A stretch of 64,000 bases of DNA from assembly GCA_937992195.1 (NCBI GenBank), contig CALKKV010000008.1, positions 1-64,000 of the forward strand. The letters run 5' to 3'. Of the stretch, positions 45,352-59,242 are shown one piece after another. The DNA is from an uncultured Gammaproteobacteria bacterium. GTDB lineage: Bacteria > Pseudomonadota > Gammaproteobacteria > Arenicellales > Poriferihabitantaceae. The notes below the pieces were generated by a model. The model was given only the letters and a program-made list of their open reading frames with translations. It did not search any database and was not told the origin of the DNA. Each line of letters opens with the position of its first letter. Positions within the stretch are counted from its first letter, which is position 1. Position numbers and translations under genes: made by a program.

Positions 45352-45366
45352 AGCGTTAAAATTAAA

Positions 45367-47199
45367 TTATTCTACGGTAACTGACTTTGCGAGATTTCTG
45401 GGCTGATCAATATTTTTTCCCAAATACTCCGCAGTGTGATAAGCAAGTAGTTGCAACGGTACATTGAAGGTAATTGGAGAGATCAAGTTATCACCACATT
45501 CGAACTCCACTACGTCTTTAATTTCGTGATTACTTTGACCATCTATCTTGTGATCCGCTAGTAGATATACCTGTCCATGCCGCGCTTTTACCTCTTCGAT
45601 ATTTGAGCTGAGTTTTTCGAGTAGATCGTTTTTGGGGCATAACACTACAACGGGCATGTTCCTGTCGACTAAGGCGAGGGGGCCATGCTTTAATTCGCCG
45701 GCTGCATAGGCTTCTGCATGAATATATGAGATCTCCTTTAGCTTTAGAGCGCCCTCAATCGCGACCGGATAATGATGACCACGCCCGAGAAATAACACAC
45801 TCTTATGTTGTGATATACGTTGGGCAATTTCTTTTATTTGCTCTTCAGTTTTTAACGCGTCTTCCAGCATCTCAGGTAAGTGGGATAGTGCGTCTGCAAA
45901 AGAATCAAGAACCACGTGTGACGAATTTCTTAGTTCACCAAACTTGAGAACCAGGAGTGCGAGAGCTGTAAGTTGTGTAGTGAGCGCTTTTGTAGAAGCA
46001 ACTCCCACTTCGATACCTGCCTTGGTCAATATCACCGCCTCACTCTCTCGATACAAAGAGCTATTGTCAGTATTGCAAATACCTAGGGTTCCTAGATACG
46101 GCGACTCGTTGGCGAACCTTAGAGCTGCGAGCGTATCTGCGGTCTCTCCGGACTGAGAGATGCTGAGAAAAAGTGTATTCGGTGGTACGACCGGATCGCG
46201 ATATCGATATTCGCTAGCAATTTCTACCTGACAAGGGATTTTCGCTATTGATTCTAGCCAATACTTAGCTACCTGACCCGCATTTAACGAAGTACCGCAA
46301 GCGACAATATGAATGTTATCTACCTTATCTAGAATCGTACAGCTACCCTTATCAAACAATCGATTTGATGTCCTGCTATTGACTAGTCTTCCAGAAAGTG
46401 TGGCGCGTACCGAATCTGGCTGTTCGAAAATTTCCTTTTGCATGAAGCTAGCGAACTTGTTTTTAGATGTCGTGCATTTACTATTCGCTAAGCGAGTGCC
46501 AATTCGACTAACATGCTTGCCTTCAGAGTCATAGAAATCGCAGGTTTCAGCTGTAACTTCGGCGATATCACCATCTTCCAGATAATATACAATCTGATTT
46601 TTCTCTCGCAAGGCAATAGGATCCGAGGCAACCATGTAACCTTTTTCTCCCTGGGCAATAATTAATGGACTTCCTTTTCTTGCGGCGATTATTTTTCCTG
46701 GTTCACTGTTAAAGGTAATCGCAATGGCATAAGACCCTTCTAAATGACCAATTGCTTTTCGACATGCGTCGAAAAATCCGACTCCGGAGTTTAGGTATAA
46801 ATCCACCATGTGTGGAATGGTTTCAGAATCTGTTTCCGATGTAAAAACATAACCACGATTGATTAGAAATTGTCTGAGTTCGTTGCTATTTTCAATAACG
46901 CCATTGTGCACAACAGCAACAGCGTTACCCGATATGTGCGGATGCGCATTTTCTCTGTTTGGCTTTCCGTGAGTTGCCCATCGTGTGTGTCCTATTGCAC
47001 AAGTTCCACTTAAAGGATTTTTCGTAAGGCTATTCTGTAGCGCAGAGAGGTTGCCCGCTTCTTTTCGGATTAAAGTTTCCGTTGTGTTTTGTGCCGCAAT
47101 TCCAGAAGAATCGTATCCACGATACTCTAGAGTTCGCAATCCATCAACAATTAAGTTTACTACTTCATTATGTGCTGTTGCACCGACTATTCCACACAT
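45367..47199 (-). CDS. glmS: Glutamine-fructose-6-phosphate aminotransferase (isomerizing)
   Basis: 610 residues, the standard length. Makes glucosamine-6-phosphate from fructose-6-phosphate and glutamine, the first step to UDP-GlcNAc. The N-terminal glutaminase starts MCGIVGA with Cys2 as nucleophile, and TRWATHGKP is intact. Two SIS isomerase domains follow (ACGTSLNAG, SQSGETADTL, ASTKALTTQL) and the protein ends LAKSVTVE as in GlmS. It lies 2 bases after a tyrosine-phosphatase gene at the end of a polysaccharide-type operon, not beside glmU and atp genes, so it is probably a second, pathway-dedicated copy. Confidence 0.95.
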   Translation of the reverse strand: MCGIVGATAHNEVVNLIVDGLRTLEYRGYDSSGIAAQNTTETLIRKEAGNLSALQNSLTKNPLSGTCAIGHTRWATHGKPNRENAHPHISGNAVAVVHNGVIENSNELRQFLINRGYVFTSETDSETIPHMVDLYLNSGVGFFDACRKAIGHLEGSYAIAITFNSEPGKIIAARKGSPLIIAQGEKGYMVASDPIALREKNQIVYYLEDGDIAEVTAETCDFYDSEGKHVSRIGTRLANSKCTTSKNKFASFMQKEIFEQPDSVRATLSGRLVNSRTSNRLFDKGSCTILDKVDNIHIVACGTSLNAGQVAKYWLESIAKIPCQVEIASEYRYRDPVVPPNTLFLSISQSGETADTLAALRFANESPYLGTLGICNTDNSSLYRESEAVILTKAGIEVGVASTKALTTQLTALALLVLKFGELRNSSHVVLDSFADALSHLPEMLEDALKTEEQIKEIAQRISQHKSVLFLGRGHHYPVAIEGALKLKEISYIHAEAYAAGELKHGPLALVDRNMPVVVLCPKNDLLEKLSSNIEEVKARHGQVYLLADHKIDGQSNHEIKDVVEFECGDNLISPITFNVPLQLLAYHTAEYLGKNIDQPRNLAKSVTVE

Positions 47200-47201
47200 G
47201 T

Positions 47202-47783
47202 CTATTCTCCGTATCTAATGTTCTCGCTAGTCTGCGAATCTGCAGTCAGTCTTTCGACCAAAGACTTGCAAACCACAAACAACTGATCAACCATTACATC
47301 GAAATCTGCGTCGATTCCATGAAATGGATCTGGAATAGTGGTGAGCTTAGGATCTTGAGAAAATTCAGTGATCATGTTCACCTTGTACATGAATTCGGAA
47401 GGGCAAATAATGGAAACATAATCGAGATTTCGTTGATCCATTACGATGATGTGATCAAACTCAATAAAGTCTGTCACACTTAACTGTCTTCCTCTCAATC
47501 TGGAAATATCTAGGCCTGCATCCCCCAGGGCACGAATTGCCCTCGGGTCCGGTGCTTTACCAATATGGAAATCGTGTGTTCCTGCTGAATCAGACTCAAA
47601 CTCTGTGCTTTTCTTATTAATCGCAATCAGGAAGTCAAAAATGCCTTGTGCACTTGGAGATCTACAGATATTGCCATAGCAAACAAATAGTACTTTCTTA
47701 GGGCTGGCAGGTTGCAACGTTGAAGTGTGAATGTTAAGGCTGAACTTGGATGGGTTATTGCTAATAATTTGTTTAGAATTCAT
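47202..47783 (-). CDS. Low-molecular-weight protein-tyrosine phosphatase (Wzb/Etp-like)
   Basis: 193 residues. The phosphate loop VCYGNICRSPSAQG (C-x5-R-S) and the distal acid in DPFHG define the LMW-PTP family. About 28 extra residues precede the core. In polysaccharide loci such enzymes dephosphorylate a Wzc/BY-kinase that controls chain export; no kinase gene is in the window. The start overlaps the upstream outer-membrane gene by 11 bases and the stop lies 2 bases before glmS, so it is firmly in the operon. Confidence 0.88.
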   Translation of the reverse strand: MNSKQIISNNPSKFSLNIHTSTLQPASPKKVLFVCYGNICRSPSAQGIFDFLIAINKKSTEFESDSAGTHDFHIGKAPDPRAIRALGDAGLDISRLRGRQLSVTDFIEFDHIIVMDQRNLDYVSIICPSEFMYKVNMITEFSQDPKLTTIPDPFHGIDADFDVMVDQLFVVCKSLVERLTADSQTSENIRYGE

Positions 47784-49095
47784 GTGATATACCTAATGTA
47801 AATGTTGTTTCGTTAGTAAAAAAGTTGTTCAAGTATTTTGCTGAGACAGCTGTATTGCTTGTCACATAGTGGTGAGCGTTTGCGAAAACAGAACTTGCGG
47901 TATTGGACTCTGTTTGACTGGAGCTCCCGCCTACTTGGAAATAGTTCTTCTTCCCATAGCTCTTTGTTAGCGAGACAGAGAGGGCGGTACTGGTGCCGTC
48001 ATTTTTATTCTCGTTGTAAAAGAGTTGCGCCATCGGGGTGACGGTAGTGGGCGTGTTAAAAACGTATCCTGCATAACCCAATATGTTCTCTGTATCACTT
48101 GAGGAGAAAGTAGGAACAATGCCCGCGAGAACGGTGTTTTTCTTCTTGTCTTTAATGGAAAGTTCAAGTTGTAGCTTGACCTTTTTAGAATCACCAGTAA
48201 GAAGTTGCTGCGTACCAGAGAAAAAAAGCGAAGCTTTTTCAGTAATACGGTAGGAGCCTGATAGTCCATACGTATTTTCAACTGTCTCGCTATTTGGGAT
48301 GCTGTTTAGGTTTGGCGTGATCACAGGTTGTTCGTAATTGCGGTACTCGGCTCCCCATCGAAATCGATAGTTTTCTGCAGAGGAGTACGAGATTCGAAAC
48401 GATCCAAGAGATTCTTTATTGGGTGACTGAACTGATCCGTAGCTCAGTTCTAGCTTCCTGGATTTGACCTGTCCTAGCATCTTTAAACCATCCAACGCAG
48501 AAATATTATTTCTTTCCTGTTGTAGAATTTCCTCGAAGTATTTTTTTGCATCGCTCAATTCGTAGTTTGATATAAGGGCGAATCCCAGCCCGGCTTTGAT
48601 TGCATTGTTTTCGGGCTGAATTTTCAGCAGATCCCTATAAATTTTAAGAGATTGTGGAATTTTGCCCATCCAATGCAGCATTCTTGCTCTACCCAAAAAA
48701 GCTGGCGTAAGAGATTCGTTGCTGGAAAGAGATGTATATATAGCTAGTGCACGATCCAGTTGGCCCTGCCATTCGAAGGTAACGGCGAGGTCCAGCTGAT
48801 AGATTTCGTTTTCTGGATCGTTCGCGATTGCAGACTCAAATAAATTCTCTGCTTTATCCAACTCCTTTTTGCTTCTTGCAATCAGGCCGAGATAGAAATA
48901 GCTCTCCGCAATATTTTCTCCAGCGTCAATACATGCGGCAAACTGTTCACCTGAAACAGTAAACTGCTTGTCGATAAAATTCTCCATCGCGTCATGGGAT
49001 TTACATTGCGCCATGACTGTCTCTCCATAAAATAGGAATGCAGTCGTCATCGCTATCGAGAGTGTTGTCTTAGACATGTCTATAAGATTTCTCAT
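47773..49095 (-). CDS. TPR plus outer-membrane beta-barrel protein (PgaA/YaiO-like export component)
   Basis: About 440 residues from the ATG at 49095 (ATG 49077 and TTG 49113 are alternatives). Signal peptide ends TVMAQ. Residues about 50-210 are TPR repeats (ESYFYLGLIARSKKELDKAE, ALAIYTSLSSNES, SLKIYRDLLKIQPEN). About 215-440 is a series of amphipathic strands ending in HEF, an outer-membrane barrel signature. The TPR-plus-barrel layout is that of PgaA/AlgK-E/YaiO-type polysaccharide secretins, so it probably exports the glycan made by this locus. Confidence 0.72.
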   Translation of the reverse strand: MRNLIDMSKTTLSIAMTTAFLFYGETVMAQCKSHDAMENFIDKQFTVSGEQFAACIDAGENIAESYFYLGLIARSKKELDKAENLFESAIANDPENEIYQLDLAVTFEWQGQLDRALAIYTSLSSNESLTPAFLGRARMLHWMGKIPQSLKIYRDLLKIQPENNAIKAGLGFALISNYELSDAKKYFEEILQQERNNISALDGLKMLGQVKSRKLELSYGSVQSPNKESLGSFRISYSSAENYRFRWGAEYRNYEQPVITPNLNSIPNSETVENTYGLSGSYRITEKASLFFSGTQQLLTGDSKKVKLQLELSIKDKKKNTVLAGIVPTFSSSDTENILGYAGYVFNTPTTVTPMAQLFYNENKNDGTSTALSVSLTKSYGKKNYFQVGGSSSQTESNTASSVFANAHHYVTSNTAVSAKYLNNFFTNETTFTLGISHEF

Positions 49096-49109
49096 GGTTT
49101 TTCGATGGA

Positions 49110-50096
49110 TCAAGCAACTAATGCAGGAACTGCTAGATGGTTATGAAACTCGGAAGCAGGTAAATAGGTTTCCTTCCAACTCCGAACCATGGCGATAGTT
49201 TGGTATTCCATTTTGGTGGGGAGAGTTTCACCACGCAGTTCACGGATACAAAGCTCGGGCATATTGATACCGGAGGCGACAGTTAGCGGCATGGTTCCAG
49301 GAAATCGTGGATTTATCTCGAGAAGTCTGGGTTGATTTCGGTCGTCCATCTTGAACTGAATATTTGCCACATAACGAATACCAACATGGGTGGCAATTTT
49401 TGTGGCCATATCGCTGATTCTCTTGTCAAAAAGCGTTTGACTAATAACAGCAATTCCTGAGTCAACTTTGATTCGTTCCCTGATCACATTTGCAATTAAA
49501 TTTCCATTTTGGTTTACAAAAACATCAACTGAAAATTCTTTGCCTGGAAGATAATCTTGAAGTAAAAAACTACCGTCTCGAGGGATGGTCTTCAGGTCCG
49601 CTGGTTTTTCTATCAAAGAGATGTCTCTCGATCCGCTGCCGCTTCTTGGCTTAGCGATGAGAGGAAAACTTAGGCAGCTGATGTCTGTGGAATTATCGAG
49701 TATTTGAAAGGGTGCCAGTGGTACAACACCTTCGAGCACTTGCATCAGCTGATATTTGTCGTAGCAATCTCTTAGTACCGAAGCCGGCGAAGTGATCAAA
49801 TTAATGCCAGCTTCTTCGAATTTACTTCTTTGTGATGCCAATGGCGCAAGCTCACAATCTACTGTGGGAATTACCGCATCGATTTTGTTCTTTAAACACA
49901 GCGACAAAATATAATTCGGAAAATCCCTGTTAGTACCCGCCGGTACCAGAGATCGACGTTCTGCTGGCACGAGATAGAGACCTGTAGAGTGCTTGTCCAT
50001 GTCTGCCATAAAAATGTTGACGCCTTTCATGTGAGAGATCGCGTTTAAAATAGCAATTGCTGCTGATCCACCTGCGCCTGTAATTAAAATATTCAT
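49110..50096 (-). CDS. ATP-grasp ligase (CarB/PylC-like)
   Basis: 328 residues. N-terminal Rossmann-like start NILITGAGGSAAIAILNAIS, then an ATP-grasp core with FPLIAKPRSGSGSRDI, FLLQDYLPGKEFSVDVF and the Mg-binding RLLEINPRFPGT. Enzymes of this kind make amide or peptide bonds using ATP. In a polysaccharide operon it may attach an amino acid or other acyl group to an amino sugar. It starts 20 bases after the receiver-deacetylase gene. Confidence 0.8.
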   Translation of the reverse strand: MNILITGAGGSAAIAILNAISHMKGVNIFMADMDKHSTGLYLVPAERRSLVPAGTNRDFPNYILSLCLKNKIDAVIPTVDCELAPLASQRSKFEEAGINLITSPASVLRDCYDKYQLMQVLEGVVPLAPFQILDNSTDISCLSFPLIAKPRSGSGSRDISLIEKPADLKTIPRDGSFLLQDYLPGKEFSVDVFVNQNGNLIANVIRERIKVDSGIAVISQTLFDKRISDMATKIATHVGIRYVANIQFKMDDRNQPRLLEINPRFPGTMPLTVASGINMPELCIRELRGETLPTKMEYQTIAMVRSWKETYLPASEFHNHLAVPALVA

Positions 50097-50116
50097 AACT
50101 TTTTTCGATTGATTTG

Positions 50117-51103
50117 TTAAATTGTTCGGATAACTTCCAATGGCTCTACGAGTCCAAACCCAGCGAACCGACCCCAGTATTCAGCTGTAGAGGTAATGAG
50201 GGACTCCTTGAGATATCGACACTTTGTTGTCTGTGTCCGATAGCAGGAGATAAGGTCTTTCTTCTCTTTAATTGTCTTGCTGATATCTACGAAGCGAGAT
50301 GGAATAAAATGAATATTTGAGGAAGGGCTTTGGTAACTCTGCAGCTCTTGCACAGACCGAGCCGATACAATAGTGGCGCGGTAACAGTTACGATGATCCT
50401 GGTGTGAATCATTTTTGGAGTGGGTATAAACAATATCTGGCTCAAATTCGCGAACCACTCTAGAGATTACTTCGATGGTTTCTGCTCCCTCAGAAATATT
50501 GGTGTCCTCAAGATCACCCATAAACAGTTTCGCTTGTAATATTGCGGCGGCTTTCATTGACTCTCTGATTCTTAGTTCAGTTTCTCCACCACATTTGCCG
50601 CTAGATAAAGTGAGAATAGCGATCTCGTCGCCATTGTTTCTGTGATTTATCAGTATTCCGCCACATCCGATTTCCACATCATCAGGGTGGGCGCCGATAG
50701 CCAACACTTTCTGCTTCGGAGATATAGCATTGCTACTCACCACCTTTCGTAGCTGCTCGCGTACTTTCGATAGCAGCTTTTCTTTGTTAACCGGCTTACT
50801 CAGAAATCCATCAATATTGGTGTCTAGTGCCCGCAATGTGACGTCGGTGCTCAGACTCCCAGTCATAAGCAGTACTCCGCATGTCTGATACTTTTCTTTG
50901 ATTAGCTGTGCATAATCTATGCCGTCTAGATCGGGCAGGAAAATGTCAGAGATCACCAAGTCCCATTTTTCCTTCAGAAGTGCGATAGCTTCGCCCCCTG
51001 AGTCCGTCGTTTTTATGTTGGTGTAACCCGCGTCTTTCAACCAACGTTGCAGAATCAAGAGTATGTCTCGATCATCATCGACCACTAAGATTTTGTTGTT
51101 CAC
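50117..51103 (-). CDS. Receiver domain - PIG-L/LmbE N-acetylglucosamine deacetylase fusion
   Basis: 328 residues from the GTG at 51103, which follows AGGGGAC; a longer frame upstream has no family support. Residues 1-120 are a CheY-like receiver with acidic DDD at 9-11, phospho-acceptor D53 and K103. Residues 131-328 are a PIG-L deacetylase with the zinc motif AHPDDVE (138-144) and HSKNDSHQDHR (228-238, supplying H234 and H237). The output domain is thus an enzyme acting on GlcNAc-type sugars and should be switched by phosphorylation. First gene of the operon ending with glmS. The cognate kinase is likely the divergent H-NOX-linked hybrid kinase or another. Confidence 0.88.
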   Translation of the reverse strand: MNNKILVVDDDRDILLILQRWLKDAGYTNIKTTDSGGEAIALLKEKWDLVISDIFLPDLDGIDYAQLIKEKYQTCGVLLMTGSLSTDVTLRALDTNIDGFLSKPVNKEKLLSKVREQLRKVVSSNAISPKQKVLAIGAHPDDVEIGCGGILINHRNNGDEIAILTLSSGKCGGETELRIRESMKAAAILQAKLFMGDLEDTNISEGAETIEVISRVVREFEPDIVYTHSKNDSHQDHRNCYRATIVSARSVQELQSYQSPSSNIHFIPSRFVDISKTIKEKKDLISCYRTQTTKCRYLKESLITSTAEYWGRFAGFGLVEPLEVIRTI

Positions 51104-51183
51104 TATTTTGTCCCCTGTAATTTGATAGGGGTATTTTTGTTTTTCAGGCTTTCTCCAACAAGACTTCGAAAGACGAGTTTGGG

Positions 51184-51199
51184 TGGGCAAAAGATTGCA
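51184..51199 (+). promoter_or_regulatory. Candidate sigma-54 -24/-12 promoter
   Basis: TGGGCAAAAGATTGCA has GG and GC separated by 10 bases and a perfect TTGCA -12 half, but a poor -24 half. It lies in the divergent spacer, pointing towards the H-NOX gene 140 bases on. No enhancer-binding protein gene is in the window. Confidence 0.3.
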
Positions 51200-51337
51200 G
51201 TCATGTACTTCGGGACAGTCGATCAAGTGAGAGGTGTTCTTAACCTATCCTTTAGGTCAGGTTGGATGACTGAACGGTCAGGTGAAATAGACAAGCGGCA
51301 CTGTTAGGATGTCCTATCACTTACAGGCTTGTTTCTC

Positions 51338-51886
51338 ATGAAAGGCATTATTTTTTCGAGTTTTCTGGATTTCGTCGAACTGCGACTGGGCGACGACTTC
51401 TTGGAAGAGATGATCGACGTTTCTAATCTGAAAACAAACGGGGCTTATACTAACGTCGGCACTTATCCTGTCGAGGAGTTGGTCACCATGCTTGGGTACG
51501 TTCTTAAAATGCATGCTATTGACAAAGACCAACTGCTGAAAGATTTTGGTTGTCATACGTTTGGACATCTGACCAAGAACTACAATCATTTAGTGGTGGA
51601 TTTCAAAGACGCGTTTGACTGCATATACAACGTCGATCAAACTATCCACCAGAACGTGCTAAAGCTCTATCCAGATGCGGAGTTGCCAAACATGAGGGCG
51701 AAAATATTAGATCAGGGCAACAAATTGCATTTAGTATACGAATCAAGTCGGCCATTTATGTATGTGGCTTATGGCTTACTAGATGGTTGTGTAAAACATT
51801 TCGATGATAATGTAACGATCGAAATGCAAGACCTATCTAATGGTGTTGGCACCCACGCTGAGTTTTATTTGACACGAGATGACTGA
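51338..51886 (+). CDS. H-NOX haem nitric-oxide sensor protein
   Basis: 182 residues, a stand-alone H-NOX domain of normal length, from the ATG at 51338. Proximal haem ligand H104 (NVDQTIHQNV), the porphyrin-binding Y134-x-S136-x-R138 (YESSR), and the typical start MKGIIFSSFLDFVELRLGD. It binds haem and senses NO, and in known pairs it inhibits or releases a histidine kinase. Its stop overlaps the kinase gene by 8 bases, so the two are a sensor-kinase pair. Cytoplasmic. Confidence 0.92.
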   Translation: MKGIIFSSFLDFVELRLGDDFLEEMIDVSNLKTNGAYTNVGTYPVEELVTMLGYVLKMHAIDKDQLLKDFGCHTFGHLTKNYNHLVVDFKDAFDCIYNVDQTIHQNVLKLYPDAELPNMRAKILDQGNKLHLVYESSRPFMYVAYGLLDGCVKHFDDNVTIEMQDLSNGVGTHAEFYLTRDD

Positions 51887-53549
51887 CCGGCCCGATAAAT
51901 TTCAGAAACGATTCGAACGCGAACGAGCCGCGCGGATCGAAGCAGAACGACTATTGGAAAAGATTTCTGGGGAGCTTTATCAGTCGCTACTGGAAACAAA
52001 GGAAAGCCAAGACATGCTACAAAGTGCGATGTCCAGCATGGCAGATGGTTTTCTCCTGTTGAATGCAAATGATGAAGTCATTCTCTCCAATGAACAAATT
52101 CGGAAAATATACGCGAATAGACGACATATTTTTGACACGGGGCACTCGATTTTAGAAGAGTTCCAAGAGCTAGTTTCACATCCGGAGTATGTTGCAGTGA
52201 AATCCGGGTCCCGACCAGAGGCCTATTTTGAGATTGAGTATGTCGACGAAACTATTGTTTCCGTCAGTATGGCCTCAACTCCCGAAGGACACCTCGCCTC
52301 AACTCATCGCGATATTACTGCGCTAAAGAAATCGGAAATCGAAAAAAGAGAGCTGTTGGTAGATTTGATGCGTTCTCAACGCATGGAGGCAATAGGGCGA
52401 ATGTCTGGAATGATCGCGCATGACTTTAATAACATTATTGCCGCTATTCAGGGATTCGCCGGATTTCTGCAGGAAGACTTGCCAGAGGATCCGGCTTTGC
52501 ATGACATGGTTCATCGAATCATTTCAGCCACTTCTCGAGCCCAAGATTTAATCAAGCAAATACTGGAGCATGGAAACCAGCAGCAAGCTTCGGTGCATCA
52601 GGTCTCTCTGATACCCGTGATCGATGATTGCGTCGATATGTTATTGCCCACTCTGGAATCCAAGGTTCATATTGATATCGATGCACCTGAGAAGCCAATC
52701 TGGGTCGAAGGCAATGAAAGTCGACTTGGGCAGCTATTTACTAATTTGCTAACCAACTCTGCTCGTGCAATCAAGGAAAAATCTGGGTCAATCTATATAG
52801 CTGTAGAGGTACATGAAGGATTTGAGTTTCAAGATTACCACCCTCCGGGTTCGCAAATATCTCCAGCTTCCGACTCGGCAATTACCGTGCTGGGCAACTT
52901 GAGCTATTCCGGAAATTGTGTTGTTGTAAATATCCTCGATACCGGTTGCGGGATGACGCAAATTGAATGCGACCGTATATTTGAAATGTATTTTACAACC
53001 AGGGAGAACGCGATTCATGGCGGTGTCGGCATGTCCAGTGTGGCAGAAGTAGTAACAGAATATGAAGGAGGGATACAGGTTAGTTCAAAAGAGAATATTG
53101 GAACGATTGTTACTGTGGTGTTTCCACTGCTTAAAAAGCTCAACCTTGCGTCTGACCCTTTTAAGCAAGATAACTCGAACACGAAAAATCAACAGTTTGA
53201 TATTCTTCTAGTCGATGACGATATCAACGTTGGTGAAATGGTAAAGAAAATGTTGGAAAGATCCGGGATATCGGTGGAATATCTCTCCTCATCAAAACGG
53301 GCTGCTGACATCATTACGGAAAACCCTTTTCGGTGGAAGTTAATCGTTAGCGACCAGATAATGCCGGACCTGAAGGGTACTGATCTCTATTTGGCGCTCA
53401 GAGATCGGCAAATAGATCTGCCCTTTGTCATTTGTTCTGGGAAAATAGACACCGAAAGTGAAATGGTGATCAGAGCGTTAAAGATCGATGTCATACCAAA
53501 GCCTATTGACAAAGAAACCTTGCTGGATAAGGTTAAACAATACCTTTAA
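51879..53549 (+). CDS. H-NOX-associated hybrid histidine kinase
   Basis: 556 residues, no membrane segment. N-terminal coiled coil (FERERAARIEAERLLEKI), a PAS-like domain (about 45-150), HisKA with phospho-acceptor H181 in MIAHDFNNIIAAI, an HATPase domain (NLLTNSARAI, DTGCGMTQIE, GGVGMSS), and a C-terminal receiver (ILLVDDD, phospho-acceptor Asp in KLIVSDQIMPD). This is the layout of HnoK/HahK-type kinases controlled by H-NOX. Phosphate can pass to the response regulator at 53640 or to the receiver-deacetylase. Confidence 0.9.
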   Translation: MTDRPDKFQKRFERERAARIEAERLLEKISGELYQSLLETKESQDMLQSAMSSMADGFLLLNANDEVILSNEQIRKIYANRRHIFDTGHSILEEFQELVSHPEYVAVKSGSRPEAYFEIEYVDETIVSVSMASTPEGHLASTHRDITALKKSEIEKRELLVDLMRSQRMEAIGRMSGMIAHDFNNIIAAIQGFAGFLQEDLPEDPALHDMVHRIISATSRAQDLIKQILEHGNQQQASVHQVSLIPVIDDCVDMLLPTLESKVHIDIDAPEKPIWVEGNESRLGQLFTNLLTNSARAIKEKSGSIYIAVEVHEGFEFQDYHPPGSQISPASDSAITVLGNLSYSGNCVVVNILDTGCGMTQIECDRIFEMYFTTRENAIHGGVGMSSVAEVVTEYEGGIQVSSKENIGTIVTVVFPLLKKLNLASDPFKQDNSNTKNQQFDILLVDDDINVGEMVKKMLERSGISVEYLSSSKRAADIITENPFRWKLIVSDQIMPDLKGTDLYLALRDRQIDLPFVICSGKIDTESEMVIRALKIDVIPKPIDKETLLDKVKQYL

Positions 53550-53639
53550 TCAGGTGCTCTTCAGCTTGGGACAGCCTGATTCGAGCAGGTTACAATGCGT
53601 GGTAGTATCTATCTGGACTGGAGCCCTTTTTCTTAGCTA

Positions 53640-54269
53640 TTGAAAATAGTCATCGCTGATGATCACGATTTGGTCAGGGACGCTATCATTACCCTGATTG
53701 AAAGAGATGATCCCAATTCTGAAGTTTTCGGCGCAAGCGATTTCGATAGCGCTCGCGAGATACTTGATCAACAGCCTGATGTTGATGTCTTGCTGCTCGA
53801 CGTAATTATGCCCGGAATGGCAAATATGGTGTCGGTACGCACGATCCGAGACAACTACCCTAAAATCCCTGTCGTACTGATGTCAGGTCAAATCAGTCAG
53901 GGCGATGTCGAGCGCGGATTCGAGATGGGTGCGCGGGGGTTTATTCCTAAAACGATGAATGGGAAAACCTTGCTATCGGTTCTACACCTCGTAGTTTCGG
54001 GTGCCAGATATATACCCGATCTTGTGTTAGATGCACCCTCGGAACCTAAACAGGTTAACGCCGACTCTGCAAATCTTTCAGCGCGGGAACTGGATGTTTT
54101 AAATGAGCTTGTTAAAGGTTTGTCAAACAAGGTTATTGCAAAAAACCTTGGGGTAGAGGAAACCACCGTTAAGTTACATTTGCGATCTCTCTTTAAAAAG
54201 CTTGAAGTTAAGAATCGAACAGAGGCAGTGATTGCCGCGATGGAGCAAGGCATTATTTGCGAAAGTTAG
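53640..54269 (+). CDS. NarL/LuxR-type response regulator
   Basis: 209 residues. Receiver domain (VIADDHDLVRDAI, phospho-acceptor D54 in LLLDVIMPG, K105 in FIPKTM) and a C-terminal LuxR helix-turn-helix (LSARELDVLNELVKGLSNKV, then EETTVKLHLRSLFKKL, with gaps). The start appears to be a TTG at 53640; no better codon lies close. It follows the H-NOX kinase by 90 bases and is the likely transcriptional output of the NO-sensing system. Confidence 0.88.
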   Translation: MKIVIADDHDLVRDAIITLIERDDPNSEVFGASDFDSAREILDQQPDVDVLLLDVIMPGMANMVSVRTIRDNYPKIPVVLMSGQISQGDVERGFEMGARGFIPKTMNGKTLLSVLHLVVSGARYIPDLVLDAPSEPKQVNADSANLSARELDVLNELVKGLSNKVIAKNLGVEETTVKLHLRSLFKKLEVKNRTEAVIAAMEQGIICES

Positions 54270-54292
54270 CTTATTTCACCGACAGGGCCACT

Positions 54293-54712
54293 CTAGCCGA
54301 CTTTTGGAGAATTCGGAAACCTCAGTTTAAAAGTGAGTGCTCCACCTGTCTCCGGATTGGTGTAATAGCGAAACTCGATGTATTCCTCATGATGCTTCCA
54401 CGAATCGAGCTCGAAACTAAAAGAAGACAAACCATAATATTCTGCAATCTCTAGAAAGTACCGTACCCTGGTATCAGGATAGTGCAGGACCTCTAGTACC
54501 AGCCTCTGTTGAGCTGAGCCGAGCCGATAGTAAACTCCCTTGAACCGCGATACATCGCCATCGATTCGCTCCATTTCTTCGGTCTCGAGAGTATACCCCC
54601 GTTCCGACATTATCCGTACCGTTTCCAGGGCATACTCTGGCGACATCTCCATAACGAATTTCTTGTGGCTAGCTAACTGAATGACAAGAAAAATCCTGGG
54701 TCTAGTATCCAC
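54293..54712 (-). CDS. Uncharacterised soluble protein
   Basis: 139 residues, GTG start overlapping the upstream gene by 40 bases. Mixed alpha/beta composition, no signal peptide and no membrane segment; contains FSFELDSWKHHEEYIEFRY. No family recognised. Co-transcribed with the gene at 54673 and probably with the glycosyltransferase gene further upstream. Its stop lies 23 bases past the stop of the convergent response regulator gene. Confidence 0.6.
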   Translation of the reverse strand: MDTRPRIFLVIQLASHKKFVMEMSPEYALETVRIMSERGYTLETEEMERIDGDVSRFKGVYYRLGSAQQRLVLEVLHYPDTRVRYFLEIAEYYGLSSFSFELDSWKHHEEYIEFRYYTNPETGGALTFKLRFPNSPKVG

Positions 54713-55110
54713 TGACGCAAGATTAGTCCGATTACTATGAGTTCCAGTACGATCACTATGCGATAGAGCAGCTGTTTTTCGTTTTCAAGATCGATAGCTA
54801 TTTCCAACTGAAATCGCTCCTTGTCATGGTCAGTGCCGAGGACAGGGCGGACACGGCGTGTCAGGTGTCGCTGCGATCCAATCTGGATTCGATCAAAACT
54901 TCCATCTGATACGAGATCTTCGATTAGTTCTCTCACCCCTTTTGCTGGAATGTCTCCCGGACAATCTGGCAGCATTAGGATCAACTCGGCATTGTCTGGA
55001 CAAGGGTCGGGTGCGTGATTCAATAACCATTCAGCGAGTTCATGACGCGCTTGAAGCAGACCTTCATCGGCAACAATTTTCAGAAAGCGGCTATTCGTCC
55101 TTTCAACCAT
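54673..55110 (-). CDS. Uncharacterised protein with C-terminal membrane anchor
   Basis: 145 residues, ATG start. The N-terminal 110 residues look soluble (VRELIEDLVSDGSFDRIQIG), and residues about 113-135 form a single membrane helix (LLYRIVIVLELIVIGLIL). No family recognised. Overlaps the next gene. Position suggests a role with the glycosyltransferase at 55372. Confidence 0.6.
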   Translation of the reverse strand: MVERTNSRFLKIVADEGLLQARHELAEWLLNHAPDPCPDNAELILMLPDCPGDIPAKGVRELIEDLVSDGSFDRIQIGSQRHLTRRVRPVLGTDHDKERFQLEIAIDLENEKQLLYRIVIVLELIVIGLILRQWILDPGFFLSFS

Positions 55111-55113
55111 CCT

Positions 55114-55278
55114 TCAATATCTCAACTTAACAGCTAAAATTAATACGCCAAAAACGACAAACAACAAGATCGCAACACGCTTCAGCCATCGAGTTTTTCT
55201 TAACTCTTTTCTCAGATCGTTCCTGAATGACTCAATGCTTGAATTTGAAATTCTGTCGTTAATAGTATTGGTGTGCAG
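55114..55278 (-). CDS. Possible small single-helix membrane protein, start unclear
   Basis: An open frame of about 54 codons ends 3 bases before the ATG at 55110. It encodes a charged segment (FRNDLRKELRKTRWLKR) followed by a strong membrane helix (VAILLFVVFGVLILAVKL). The composition looks genuine, but no ATG, GTG or TTG is in frame, so it needs an unusual start (CTG or ATT) or is a decayed gene. Confidence 0.3.
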   Translation of the reverse strand: MHTNTINDRISNSSIESFRNDLRKELRKTRWLKRVAILLFVVFGVLILAVKLRY

Positions 55279-55371
55279 CTAAATAGATGTCGCTGCAAAA
55301 TTGCATTATCGGGCACGAAATTGTATCAGCTAACAACTATATAAACTTAACGTGTGGGTGGAAACTGTATG

Positions 55372-56853
55372 TTAATTGACCTTTCCGGTTTTCACGGTTT
55401 TATCCCATTTCATTTCCGCACCTTGTATTTCCTTCACATAAGCGCCAAAAGTTACCGCACAAAGAAAAGCTCCATAACCCCCAAGATAAAGAAAAACAGG
55501 CCCCAGCCAGCGAAAGTACTGAGATTGCTCAAACTTGATCGCCATAAATGACACCGCCATTGATACAGAAAGCCAAGAATAGAGAAAAAGCGTAAAAACA
55601 GTGAGTGGTAATCCCGTTAACTCAATACCTAAGTAACGGGCCGGCACCTCAACTAAGGGGGGCCAGAGGGAGTAGGCGATGACCCCAAGTGAAACAACAC
55701 CAGGGAACAGTATGCCTTCGAAGTAGCATTTATCGGCAGATTCCTTATCAACCACAAATGAACACAACGTCACAACCAAATAAACAACGCCGGAAATTAT
55801 CCAGAGCCCCTGAAAAGCAGTCCATGACCAAGTTTCGTTCAAAAAGTAAAGCGCGATGAGTCCTGCTGACGCCGTGAGCTGAAACACTGGCATTAAAAAT
55901 ATAGAGAACCACATAAGAAACATCGAGAAGGAACCGAGACCTTGATGTTCATCCCGATTCAACCAAAGTTTTGCAAACACACCAGAGATCTGCACATTTC
56001 CGCGTGACCAGCGCAAGCGTTGCTTCCACAAGCCCAATAGGCTGTCTGGCTCTTCTGCCATAACTATTGCATTGGGTTCAAACAAGACACGCCGTCCAGC
56101 GAGTTGAGAGAGAAAAGTGGTAAATGTGTCTTCAGCCAAAGTATCACTAAATATCTTGCCGCCGATCTGTTGTAAGTTAGTCCGAGTATGTAACTGCGCC
56201 CCACCTGAAAGACAAATCAAGAATCCCAACACATTTTGTGCACGGCGGGCTGCACCGGTCGCAGTGATATATTCGAATGTGACGTATCTTTGTACGTAGT
56301 TGGGAGAACGACTGCCTTCTTTAATATAAGCAGTTACTGCCCCCACAGTTGGGTCAGACAGATGACGAGCCATTTTACGTAATGCATCTTGTCGATAGAG
56401 TACGTCTGCGTCCATTATCAGTACTGCCTCGCTCCAACTGTTCTTCCATAAAACGTCGAGTCCATAGTTCAATGTGTGAGCTTTTCCCTCGCCACCAGAT
56501 ACCCGTCGAATGTGGTAAACCTGACCGGGGTATTCTTTGCTTTTTTCAATAACGGTCTGCGGAGTTAAATCTGAAGACGCATCGTCAATGACGTATATGC
56601 GTAAACTGTTTGGAGGATAATCCAGTTGAATCAGTCGGTCGATGGTGGTTCCAATTACGGCGTCTTCATTCCATGCAGGAATCAAAATAGAGACGCGCGG
56701 CAAATAATCTTTTGTACGTTCCAGATGCGTTGCAAAGGCCGAGAAAGGGAGCAAGAGATACTGGTACAAACCGGCCAAAACAGGCGTTACACCTAAAAAC
56801 ACAAAGAAAGTGCAAATAACAACTAGAACTTGATGTAGTAGATCTGGCACCAT
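55372..56853 (-). CDS. Family-2 processive glycosyltransferase (BcsA/PgaC-like)
   Basis: 493 residues: an N-terminal membrane helix, a GT-A catalytic domain and about four C-terminal membrane helices. Catalytic motifs of processive beta-glycan synthases are all present: VSILIPAWNED, DDASSD, LIMDADVLY, SGGAQLHTR, TLAEDTF and QRLRWSRGN (Q-x-x-R-W). Such enzymes make poly-GlcNAc, cellulose or hyaluronan-like chains at the inner membrane. With GlmS and a GlcNAc-type deacetylase nearby, an aminosugar polymer is the best guess. A broken copy of its 5' part lies at 58825. Confidence 0.87.
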   Translation of the reverse strand: MVPDLLHQVLVVICTFFVFLGVTPVLAGLYQYLLLPFSAFATHLERTKDYLPRVSILIPAWNEDAVIGTTIDRLIQLDYPPNSLRIYVIDDASSDLTPQTVIEKSKEYPGQVYHIRRVSGGEGKAHTLNYGLDVLWKNSWSEAVLIMDADVLYRQDALRKMARHLSDPTVGAVTAYIKEGSRSPNYVQRYVTFEYITATGAARRAQNVLGFLICLSGGAQLHTRTNLQQIGGKIFSDTLAEDTFTTFLSQLAGRRVLFEPNAIVMAEEPDSLLGLWKQRLRWSRGNVQISGVFAKLWLNRDEHQGLGSFSMFLMWFSIFLMPVFQLTASAGLIALYFLNETWSWTAFQGLWIISGVVYLVVTLCSFVVDKESADKCYFEGILFPGVVSLGVIAYSLWPPLVEVPARYLGIELTGLPLTVFTLFLYSWLSVSMAVSFMAIKFEQSQYFRWLGPVFLYLGGYGAFLCAVTFGAYVKEIQGAEMKWDKTVKTGKVN

Positions 56854-56926
56854 TAATTTGGCAGGAAATAGAGAACGCCTAAGGCTCTATACAGAGCATC
56901 GCATGGTCAAAGCATACACCTAAATT

Positions 56927-56943
56927 TTGGTGCCAGGTACCAA
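56927..56943. promoter_or_regulatory. 17-bp inverted repeat upstream of the glycosyltransferase gene
   Basis: TTGGTGCCAGGTACCAA is a near-perfect palindrome 74 bases upstream of the glycosyltransferase start. It is kept unchanged in the duplicated fragment at 59212-59228. Size and place fit an operator for a dimeric regulator. Confidence 0.4.
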
Positions 56944-57033
56944 GCGAGCGGAAACAACTCAATTAGGGGTAATAGTCTGACTCCACACCTTAAAAATCGC
57001 TGGAAACTTGAAGCTAGATCACCCAATTTTATT

Positions 57034-58824: not shown

Positions 58825-59242
58825 GTAGTTGGGAGAACGACTGCCTTCTTTAATATAAGCAGTTACTGCCCCCACAGTTGGGTCAGACAGATGACGAGCC
58901 ATTTTACGTAATACATCTTGTCGATAGAGTACGTCTGCGTCCATTATCAGTACTGCCTCGCTCCAACTGTTCTTCCATAAAACGTCGAGTCCATAGTTCA
59001 ATGTGTGTGCTTTTCCCTCGCCACCAGATACCCGCCGAATGTGGTAAACCTGACCGGGATATTCTTTGCTTTTTTCAATAACGGTCTAAAGAAAGTGCAA
59101 ATAACAACTAGAACTTGATGTAGTAGATCTGGCACCATTAATTTGGCAGGAAATAGAGAACGCCTAGGGCTCTATACAGAGCATAGCATGGTCAAAGCAT
59201 ACACCTAAATTTTGGTGCCAGGTACCAAGCGAGCGGAAACAA
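58825..59242 (-). pseudogene. Broken duplicate of the glycosyltransferase 5' region
   Basis: 58825-59087 matches 56296-56558 and 59088-59242 matches 56803-56957, both with only a few base changes. The copy therefore contains about 100 bp of upstream DNA including the 17-bp inverted repeat, the ATG and 17 codons, then a 244-bp deletion, then an internal 263-bp coding piece. The deletion is not a multiple of three, so the frame is lost after codon 17. It cannot make a working enzyme but still carries the promoter region. Confidence 0.9.

Follow-up and report, generated by a model that had tools for sequence, protein, structure and literature searches.

The question raised by this locus is whether one protein joins a phosphorylatable receiver to a sugar deacetylase and, if so, what signal would reach it and what chemistry it would control. 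In the 64,000-nucleotide stretch of DNA analysed here (hereafter designated the window), such a protein of 328 residues (plus stop) is encoded on the minus strand at 50117–51103, starting with a GTG codon at 51103 that is preceded, 9–10 bases upstream, by the Shine-Dalgarno-like AGGGG. The sequence-only reading had described a complete receiver with D53 and K103 fused to a complete PIG-L/LmbE deacetylase but gave no strand; coding on the plus strand over this interval is ruled out by stops throughout the given frame, and both parts of the description were borne out on the minus strand. The receiver domain (residues 1–120; 50744–51103) matches Pfam Response_reg over the entire profile (1–111 of 111; E = 2e-25, far above the cut-off) and has the full receiver fold with the acidic pocket (D9, D10 and D11), the phospho-acceptor D53, T81 at the Thr/Ser position, and K103. 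The deacetylase domain (residues 131–328; 50120–50713) matches Pfam PIG-L over profile positions 1–126 of 129 (E = 1e-26, likewise far above the cut-off) and has the HPDD motif, the distal His ligand, and the PIG-L fold. In alignments to 2ixd and BshB, made with HMMER for the former, H139, D141, D142, H234, and H237 of the zinc site correspond to H12, D14, D15, H110, and H113 of BC1534 (2ixd).

In the AlphaFold model of the fusion protein, helix 5 of the receiver ends near residue 124 and the first strand of the PIG-L domain begins at residue 132, with about 10 linker residues between the two domains. Both folds were recovered by Foldseek, with PDB matches to BC1534, BshB, diacetylchitobiose deacetylases, CheY-like receivers, PleD, CheB, and PorX; the structure prediction and family search proposed earlier for both halves thus gave CheY-like and BshB/BC1534-like folds alongside Response_reg and PIG-L. 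The model has a mean pLDDT of 70 (60–93 in blocks of the receiver) and is poor for residues 260–328, so that, with low confidence in the C-terminal 70 residues, it allows no judgement of the interface or of the direction of control. The fusion, in which no hydrophobic segment could be seen, is most probably located in the cytoplasm. The best reading of the protein is a response regulator having a zinc de-N-acetylase, of predicted activity, as its output.

The search for the same domain order elsewhere, also suggested by the sequence-only reading, found the fusion in six genomes including that of the window, and the neighbouring genes were read. The fusion of another species in the genus (L002, JAHQWE010000017.1; L002, G002, and G744 are one genome) shares 91% protein identity with that of the window, with a pN of 0.046 against a pS of 0.79 at which synonymous sites are saturated, and is, judging from these values, under strong purifying selection. 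The order of the window contains the fusion in 2 of 109 genomes, and a Bacteroidota order in 4 of 114 (G1008, G1029, G1126, and G1271), where it is 43–45% identical overall and, for the first three of these, about 55% identical in the PIG-L half. Across the five fusions that were aligned, which come from two phyla, none of the receiver or zinc-site residues varies. In a quick tree of 124 PIG-L domains, those belonging to the fusions group in a single clade with an SH-aLRT of 100, and the receivers agree weakly, the fusions lying on one side of a branch with a support of only 36; the simplest reading is, therefore, that the fusion would have originated once and then been transferred between phyla.

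The genome searches comprised 1,650 genomes in all, counting repeats between searches, and were made with the PIG-L half of the window and tuned to its subfamily, so that fusions of distant PIG-L subfamilies may be missed. The window's own aside, the nearest PIG-L matches in 369 genomes of the class, 299 of the phylum, and 247 of the Thermodesulfobacteriota phylum yielded no receiver fusion, receivers having been looked for in the frames that were reported and the loci that were fetched. Further long PIG-L frames of the phylum (e.g., G536, G504, and G034), considered as candidate fusions, carry no receiver, and the plasmid collection contained no record covering 80% of the fusion query. Stand-alone relatives were also observed, one on an Arthrobacter plasmid (L235, 8001–8606; 36% identity, 1e-32) that is unannotated in its record, and others in most members of a small-genome family in the sample of the window's phylum (f211; 32–37% identity).

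Nucleotide alignment of the window with L002 gave a single 11.5-kb match of 74% identity, from the stop of a GlmS gene to the start of a GT2 glycosyltransferase gene (45365–56850), whereas the immediate flanks differ and no further match was found outside these positions within the L002 stretch, except for a GT2 fragment. Because the genes are kept together in two species though the adjoining DNA differs, this block is, by the comparison, a cassette of sensor, kinase, fusion, and glycan genes, in which the fusion (91%) and the GT2 protein (92.5%) are the best conserved. The fusion heads an operon, in which the genes are separated by about 20 bases or less, or overlap, and which continues on the minus strand with an ATP-grasp ligase-like protein (49110–50096; ATPgrasp_Ter/PylC-like N by Pfam), a protein with TPR repeats and a predicted outer-membrane β-barrel (47773–49113), a Wzb-like low-molecular-weight protein tyrosine phosphatase (47202–47783; Pfam and NCBIfam), and GlmS (45367–47199; TIGR01135, 762 bits). 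The presence of GlmS and an outer-membrane barrel protein in the operon, as claimed earlier, agrees with the ORF map and Pfam, the barrel being assigned from the TPR repeats (Pfam), low-confidence strands in the model, and a C-terminal Phe. Filing this protein under YaiO was rejected as lacking sequence support: no match to E. coli YaiO was obtained by BLASTP at E up to 10, no YaiO model was among the NCBIfam matches, the likeness lies only in the layout of TPR plus barrel, and the model is too poor for fold comparison. As both genomes hold a second full-length GlmS elsewhere, the GlmS of the cassette looks like a dedicated precursor supply.

The far part of the cassette, again on the minus strand, contains two small proteins conserved in L002 (54293–54712 and 54673–55110, the latter with one hydrophobic segment near its C-terminus), neither of which has an NCBIfam match and the former of which has no Pfam match either, and the membrane GT2 glycosyltransferase of the PgaC/NodC-like type (55372–56853; Pfam and NCBIfam). 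The best NCBIfam model for the latter, PgaC poly-GlcNAc synthase (TIGR03937), gives 136 bits, below its cut-off of 422.3 bits. Positions 58825–59242 are made up of two contiguous stretches that match 56296–56558 and 56803–56957 of the GT2 gene region at about 98.5% identity, a rearranged partial copy near the edge of the cassette that hints at recombination there.

Divergent from the fusion, across 225 bases, are three genes on the plus strand, of which the first two, a sensor and a kinase, had been missed by the sequence-only reading and hint at the source of the signal. The first encodes an H-NOX (HNOB) haem gas sensor (51329–51886; 110.7 bits for the HNOB domain versus a cut-off of 25.5), in which the haem motif Y-x-S-x-R occurs as YESSR at residue 137 and His107 is the candidate proximal ligand, as assigned by motif and not by structure. 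This gene overlaps by 8 bases that of a soluble hybrid histidine kinase (51879–53549; PAS-HisKA-HATPase-REC by Pfam, with the HisKA His at residue 181 and no hydrophobic segment), and the third encodes a response regulator with a LuxR/GerE DNA-binding domain (53640–54269; Pfam). H-NOX and the fusion co-occur in exactly the same two of the 24 genomes sampled in the family. H-NOX proteins bind and regulate kinases, which in turn act, through phosphorylation, either on c-di-GMP enzymes or on regulators of transcription (PMC8738867).

From this arrangement we infer phosphotransfer, substrate, and direction of control, with every biochemical step between them, and assign a probability of roughly 0.45 to the reading that H-NOX and its kinase send a signal which, through phosphorylation, controls a de-N-acetylase in the cytoplasm whose substrate is an amino sugar destined for a surface glycan. 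The H-NOX protein would sense nitric oxide (or another haem ligand) and control the neighbouring hybrid kinase, from which a phosphoryl group would be passed to D53 of the fusion, either directly or via a phosphorelay, and also to the LuxR-type regulator, which would form a parallel transcriptional branch. The phosphorylated receiver, tied by its short linker, would alter the activity of the PIG-L domain, and the latter would de-N-acetylate an amino-sugar intermediate in the cytoplasm, for which the extra GlmS would provide the supply. Presumably, the glycan is built by the PgaC-like GT2 protein and exported or anchored by the TPR/barrel protein, and acylation of the liberated amine may fall to the ATP-grasp enzyme. 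The earlier proposal that phosphorylation would switch the deacetylase half is plausible; its wording that control is of glycan chemistry "rather than of transcription" is too strong, as a LuxR-type DNA-binding regulator stands beside the same kinase.

The proposed control is weakened by the nature of the kinase, since hybrid kinases with their own receiver often need an HPt protein and a gene for one was not found in the cassette, and by the Bacteroidota loci described below, three of which show no nearby H-NOX, GT2, or GlmS relative and one of which shows the barrel only. It gains support from the block matching L002 from end to end while the flanks do not, which suggests that the genes for sensor, kinase, fusion, and glycan chemistry move as one unit. 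It is also favoured by the invariant receiver and zinc residues, the recovery of both folds, the single PIG-L clade, the co-occurrence of H-NOX with the fusion, the second GlmS, the Bacteroidota barrel, the E. coli yai cluster, and the known regulation of kinases by H-NOX (PMC8738867). The broader idea that a horizontally mobile, NO-responsive two-component cassette acts post-translationally, via the receiver-deacetylase, on surface glycan acetylation, as an H-NOX-to-matrix route needing neither c-di-GMP nor transcription, is tentative and leans towards doubtful.

It may instead be that the fusion is a phosphorylation-controlled deacetylase whose state is set by an unlinked kinase or acetyl phosphate, with the H-NOX kinase serving only the LuxR-type regulator, which would control the operon. 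The fusion and H-NOX transcripts are divergent and not co-transcribed, the hybrid kinase could form a separate pair with the LuxR-type regulator, and Bacteroidota fusions have close by neither H-NOX nor a kinase relative that can be recognised. Indeed, in the Bacteroidota loci L207, L208, and L209, no H-NOX, GT2, or GlmS relative was found near the fusion, which has an unrelated setting (a methyltransferase, an NHL-repeat protein, and a PurD-like ORF), indicating that the H-NOX link belongs to the cassette and not to the fusion in general. However, the movement of the whole block together in two species and the exact co-occurrence of H-NOX and the fusion within the sampled family argue for a linked kinase, and we regard an unlinked one as rather unlikely.

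Less likely still, the receiver would govern dimerisation, localisation, or the binding of a partner such as GT2 or ATP-grasp, and not catalysis, the deacetylase being constitutive or its activity secondary. A precedent exists in PorX, for which a zinc-induced conformational change outweighed phosphodiesterase activity in vivo (PMC11320123), and single-domain PIG-L enzymes work without any receiver; against this, the zinc and catalytic residues are invariant in fusions from two phyla, indicating that catalysis is under selection.

Other loci bear on the glycan chemistry assumed for the deacetylase. In the Bacteroidota locus L228 (2006–4453), the fusion and a relative of the TPR/barrel protein (E = 7e-17 over the TPR part) are convergent neighbours, the barrel being the only cassette relative nearby, with no H-NOX, GT2, or GlmS. 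In E. coli K-12 and one E. coli plasmid, the PIG-L gene yaiS clusters with the GT2 gene yaiP, a transferase, and the outer-membrane protein gene yaiO. Single-domain PIG-L genes are found near ATP-grasp genes at three loci of other Pseudomonadota (L065, L066, and L067), in polysaccharide clusters as they appear from the ORFs, and these are possible deacetylate-then-ligate pairs. Collectively, these neighbours point to glycan chemistry and name no substrate; PIG-L enzymes act on diverse GlcNAc conjugates. A small soluble conjugate in place of a glycan precursor (GlcNAc-malate, a thiol precursor, being one example) would agree with BshB1 as the best NCBIfam match of the fusion (TIGR04001, 100.7 bits) and with the finding of no other PIG-L in the 86%-complete genome of the window, but it is quite improbable in view of a score that falls far short of 182.5 bits, the BshB1 cut-off, and of the glycan-type neighbours. 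A sequencing or binning error joining two genes, conceivable in a draft genome of 95 contigs and named earlier as what would refute the fusion, has a negligible probability given six genomes with the fusion, saturated synonymous change at 91% protein identity within the genus, and strong purifying selection.

If true, control of the deacetylase by H-NOX and its kinase would extend the outputs switched directly by phosphorylation to an enzyme class that alters the charge of sugars at the cell surface. Sugar chemistry may then be switched by an environmental signal without the detour through gene expression. It would also provide a possible link from H-NOX sensing to biofilm-type glycans that bypasses c-di-GMP; with sensor, kinase, enzyme, and glycan genes in one cassette, the entire route between the gas sensor and the modified glycan could be reconstituted for study in vitro or in a laboratory strain.

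Response regulators with an enzyme as the output are known, for example CheB and PleD. Like the fusion, these two, both of which were Foldseek matches, have an N-terminal receiver and a C-terminal enzyme (methylesterase and diguanylate cyclase, respectively) under phosphorylation control; unlike it, they serve to modify chemoreceptors or to produce a second messenger, with no sugar chemistry, and their output halves are non-homologous. PorX, a studied protein of this kind, likewise combines a receiver and a zinc hydrolase without a DNA-binding domain; it differs in its alkaline-phosphatase-superfamily enzyme, long helical linker domain, and role in type IX secretion (PMC11320123). BshB1, LmbE, and the diacetylchitobiose deacetylases share the fold and zinc-site residues (20–29% identity to solved structures by Foldseek), but are stand-alone enzymes without a receiver, and the fusion scores below the BshB1 cut-off. 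The E. coli yaiS-yaiP-yaiX-yaiO cluster resembles the cassette in grouping PIG-L (32% identity), GT2 (24–25%), and an outer-membrane protein, but lacks the receiver, H-NOX, kinase, and GlmS, and YaiO is dissimilar in sequence to the barrel protein. H-NOX/histidine kinase networks, as in Shewanella and Vibrio, share the H-NOX gene overlapping the kinase gene and the response regulators nearby; in contrast, their reviewed outputs are c-di-GMP enzymes, a quorum-sensing relay, and transcription regulators, and no H-NOX system beside a sugar deacetylase is listed in the review (PMC8738867). Our literature search, the scope of which did not extend to two output-domain surveys by Galperin that may hold an earlier listing, found no description of a protein joining a receiver and PIG-L/LmbE. 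Fusions of a receiver with a metabolic enzyme form an accepted, though rare, class of narrow phyletic spread (PMC5847659). One case, the MTH_548-type REC plus BcsA-like glycosyltransferase of methanogens, resembles the fusion in joining one or more receivers to a glycan-chemistry enzyme and in its narrow spread, but is archaeal and a glycosyltransferase, not a deacetylase (PMC5847659). As this class already exists, we rate the PIG-L output as an addition to the known enzyme-output response regulators and not as a new category.
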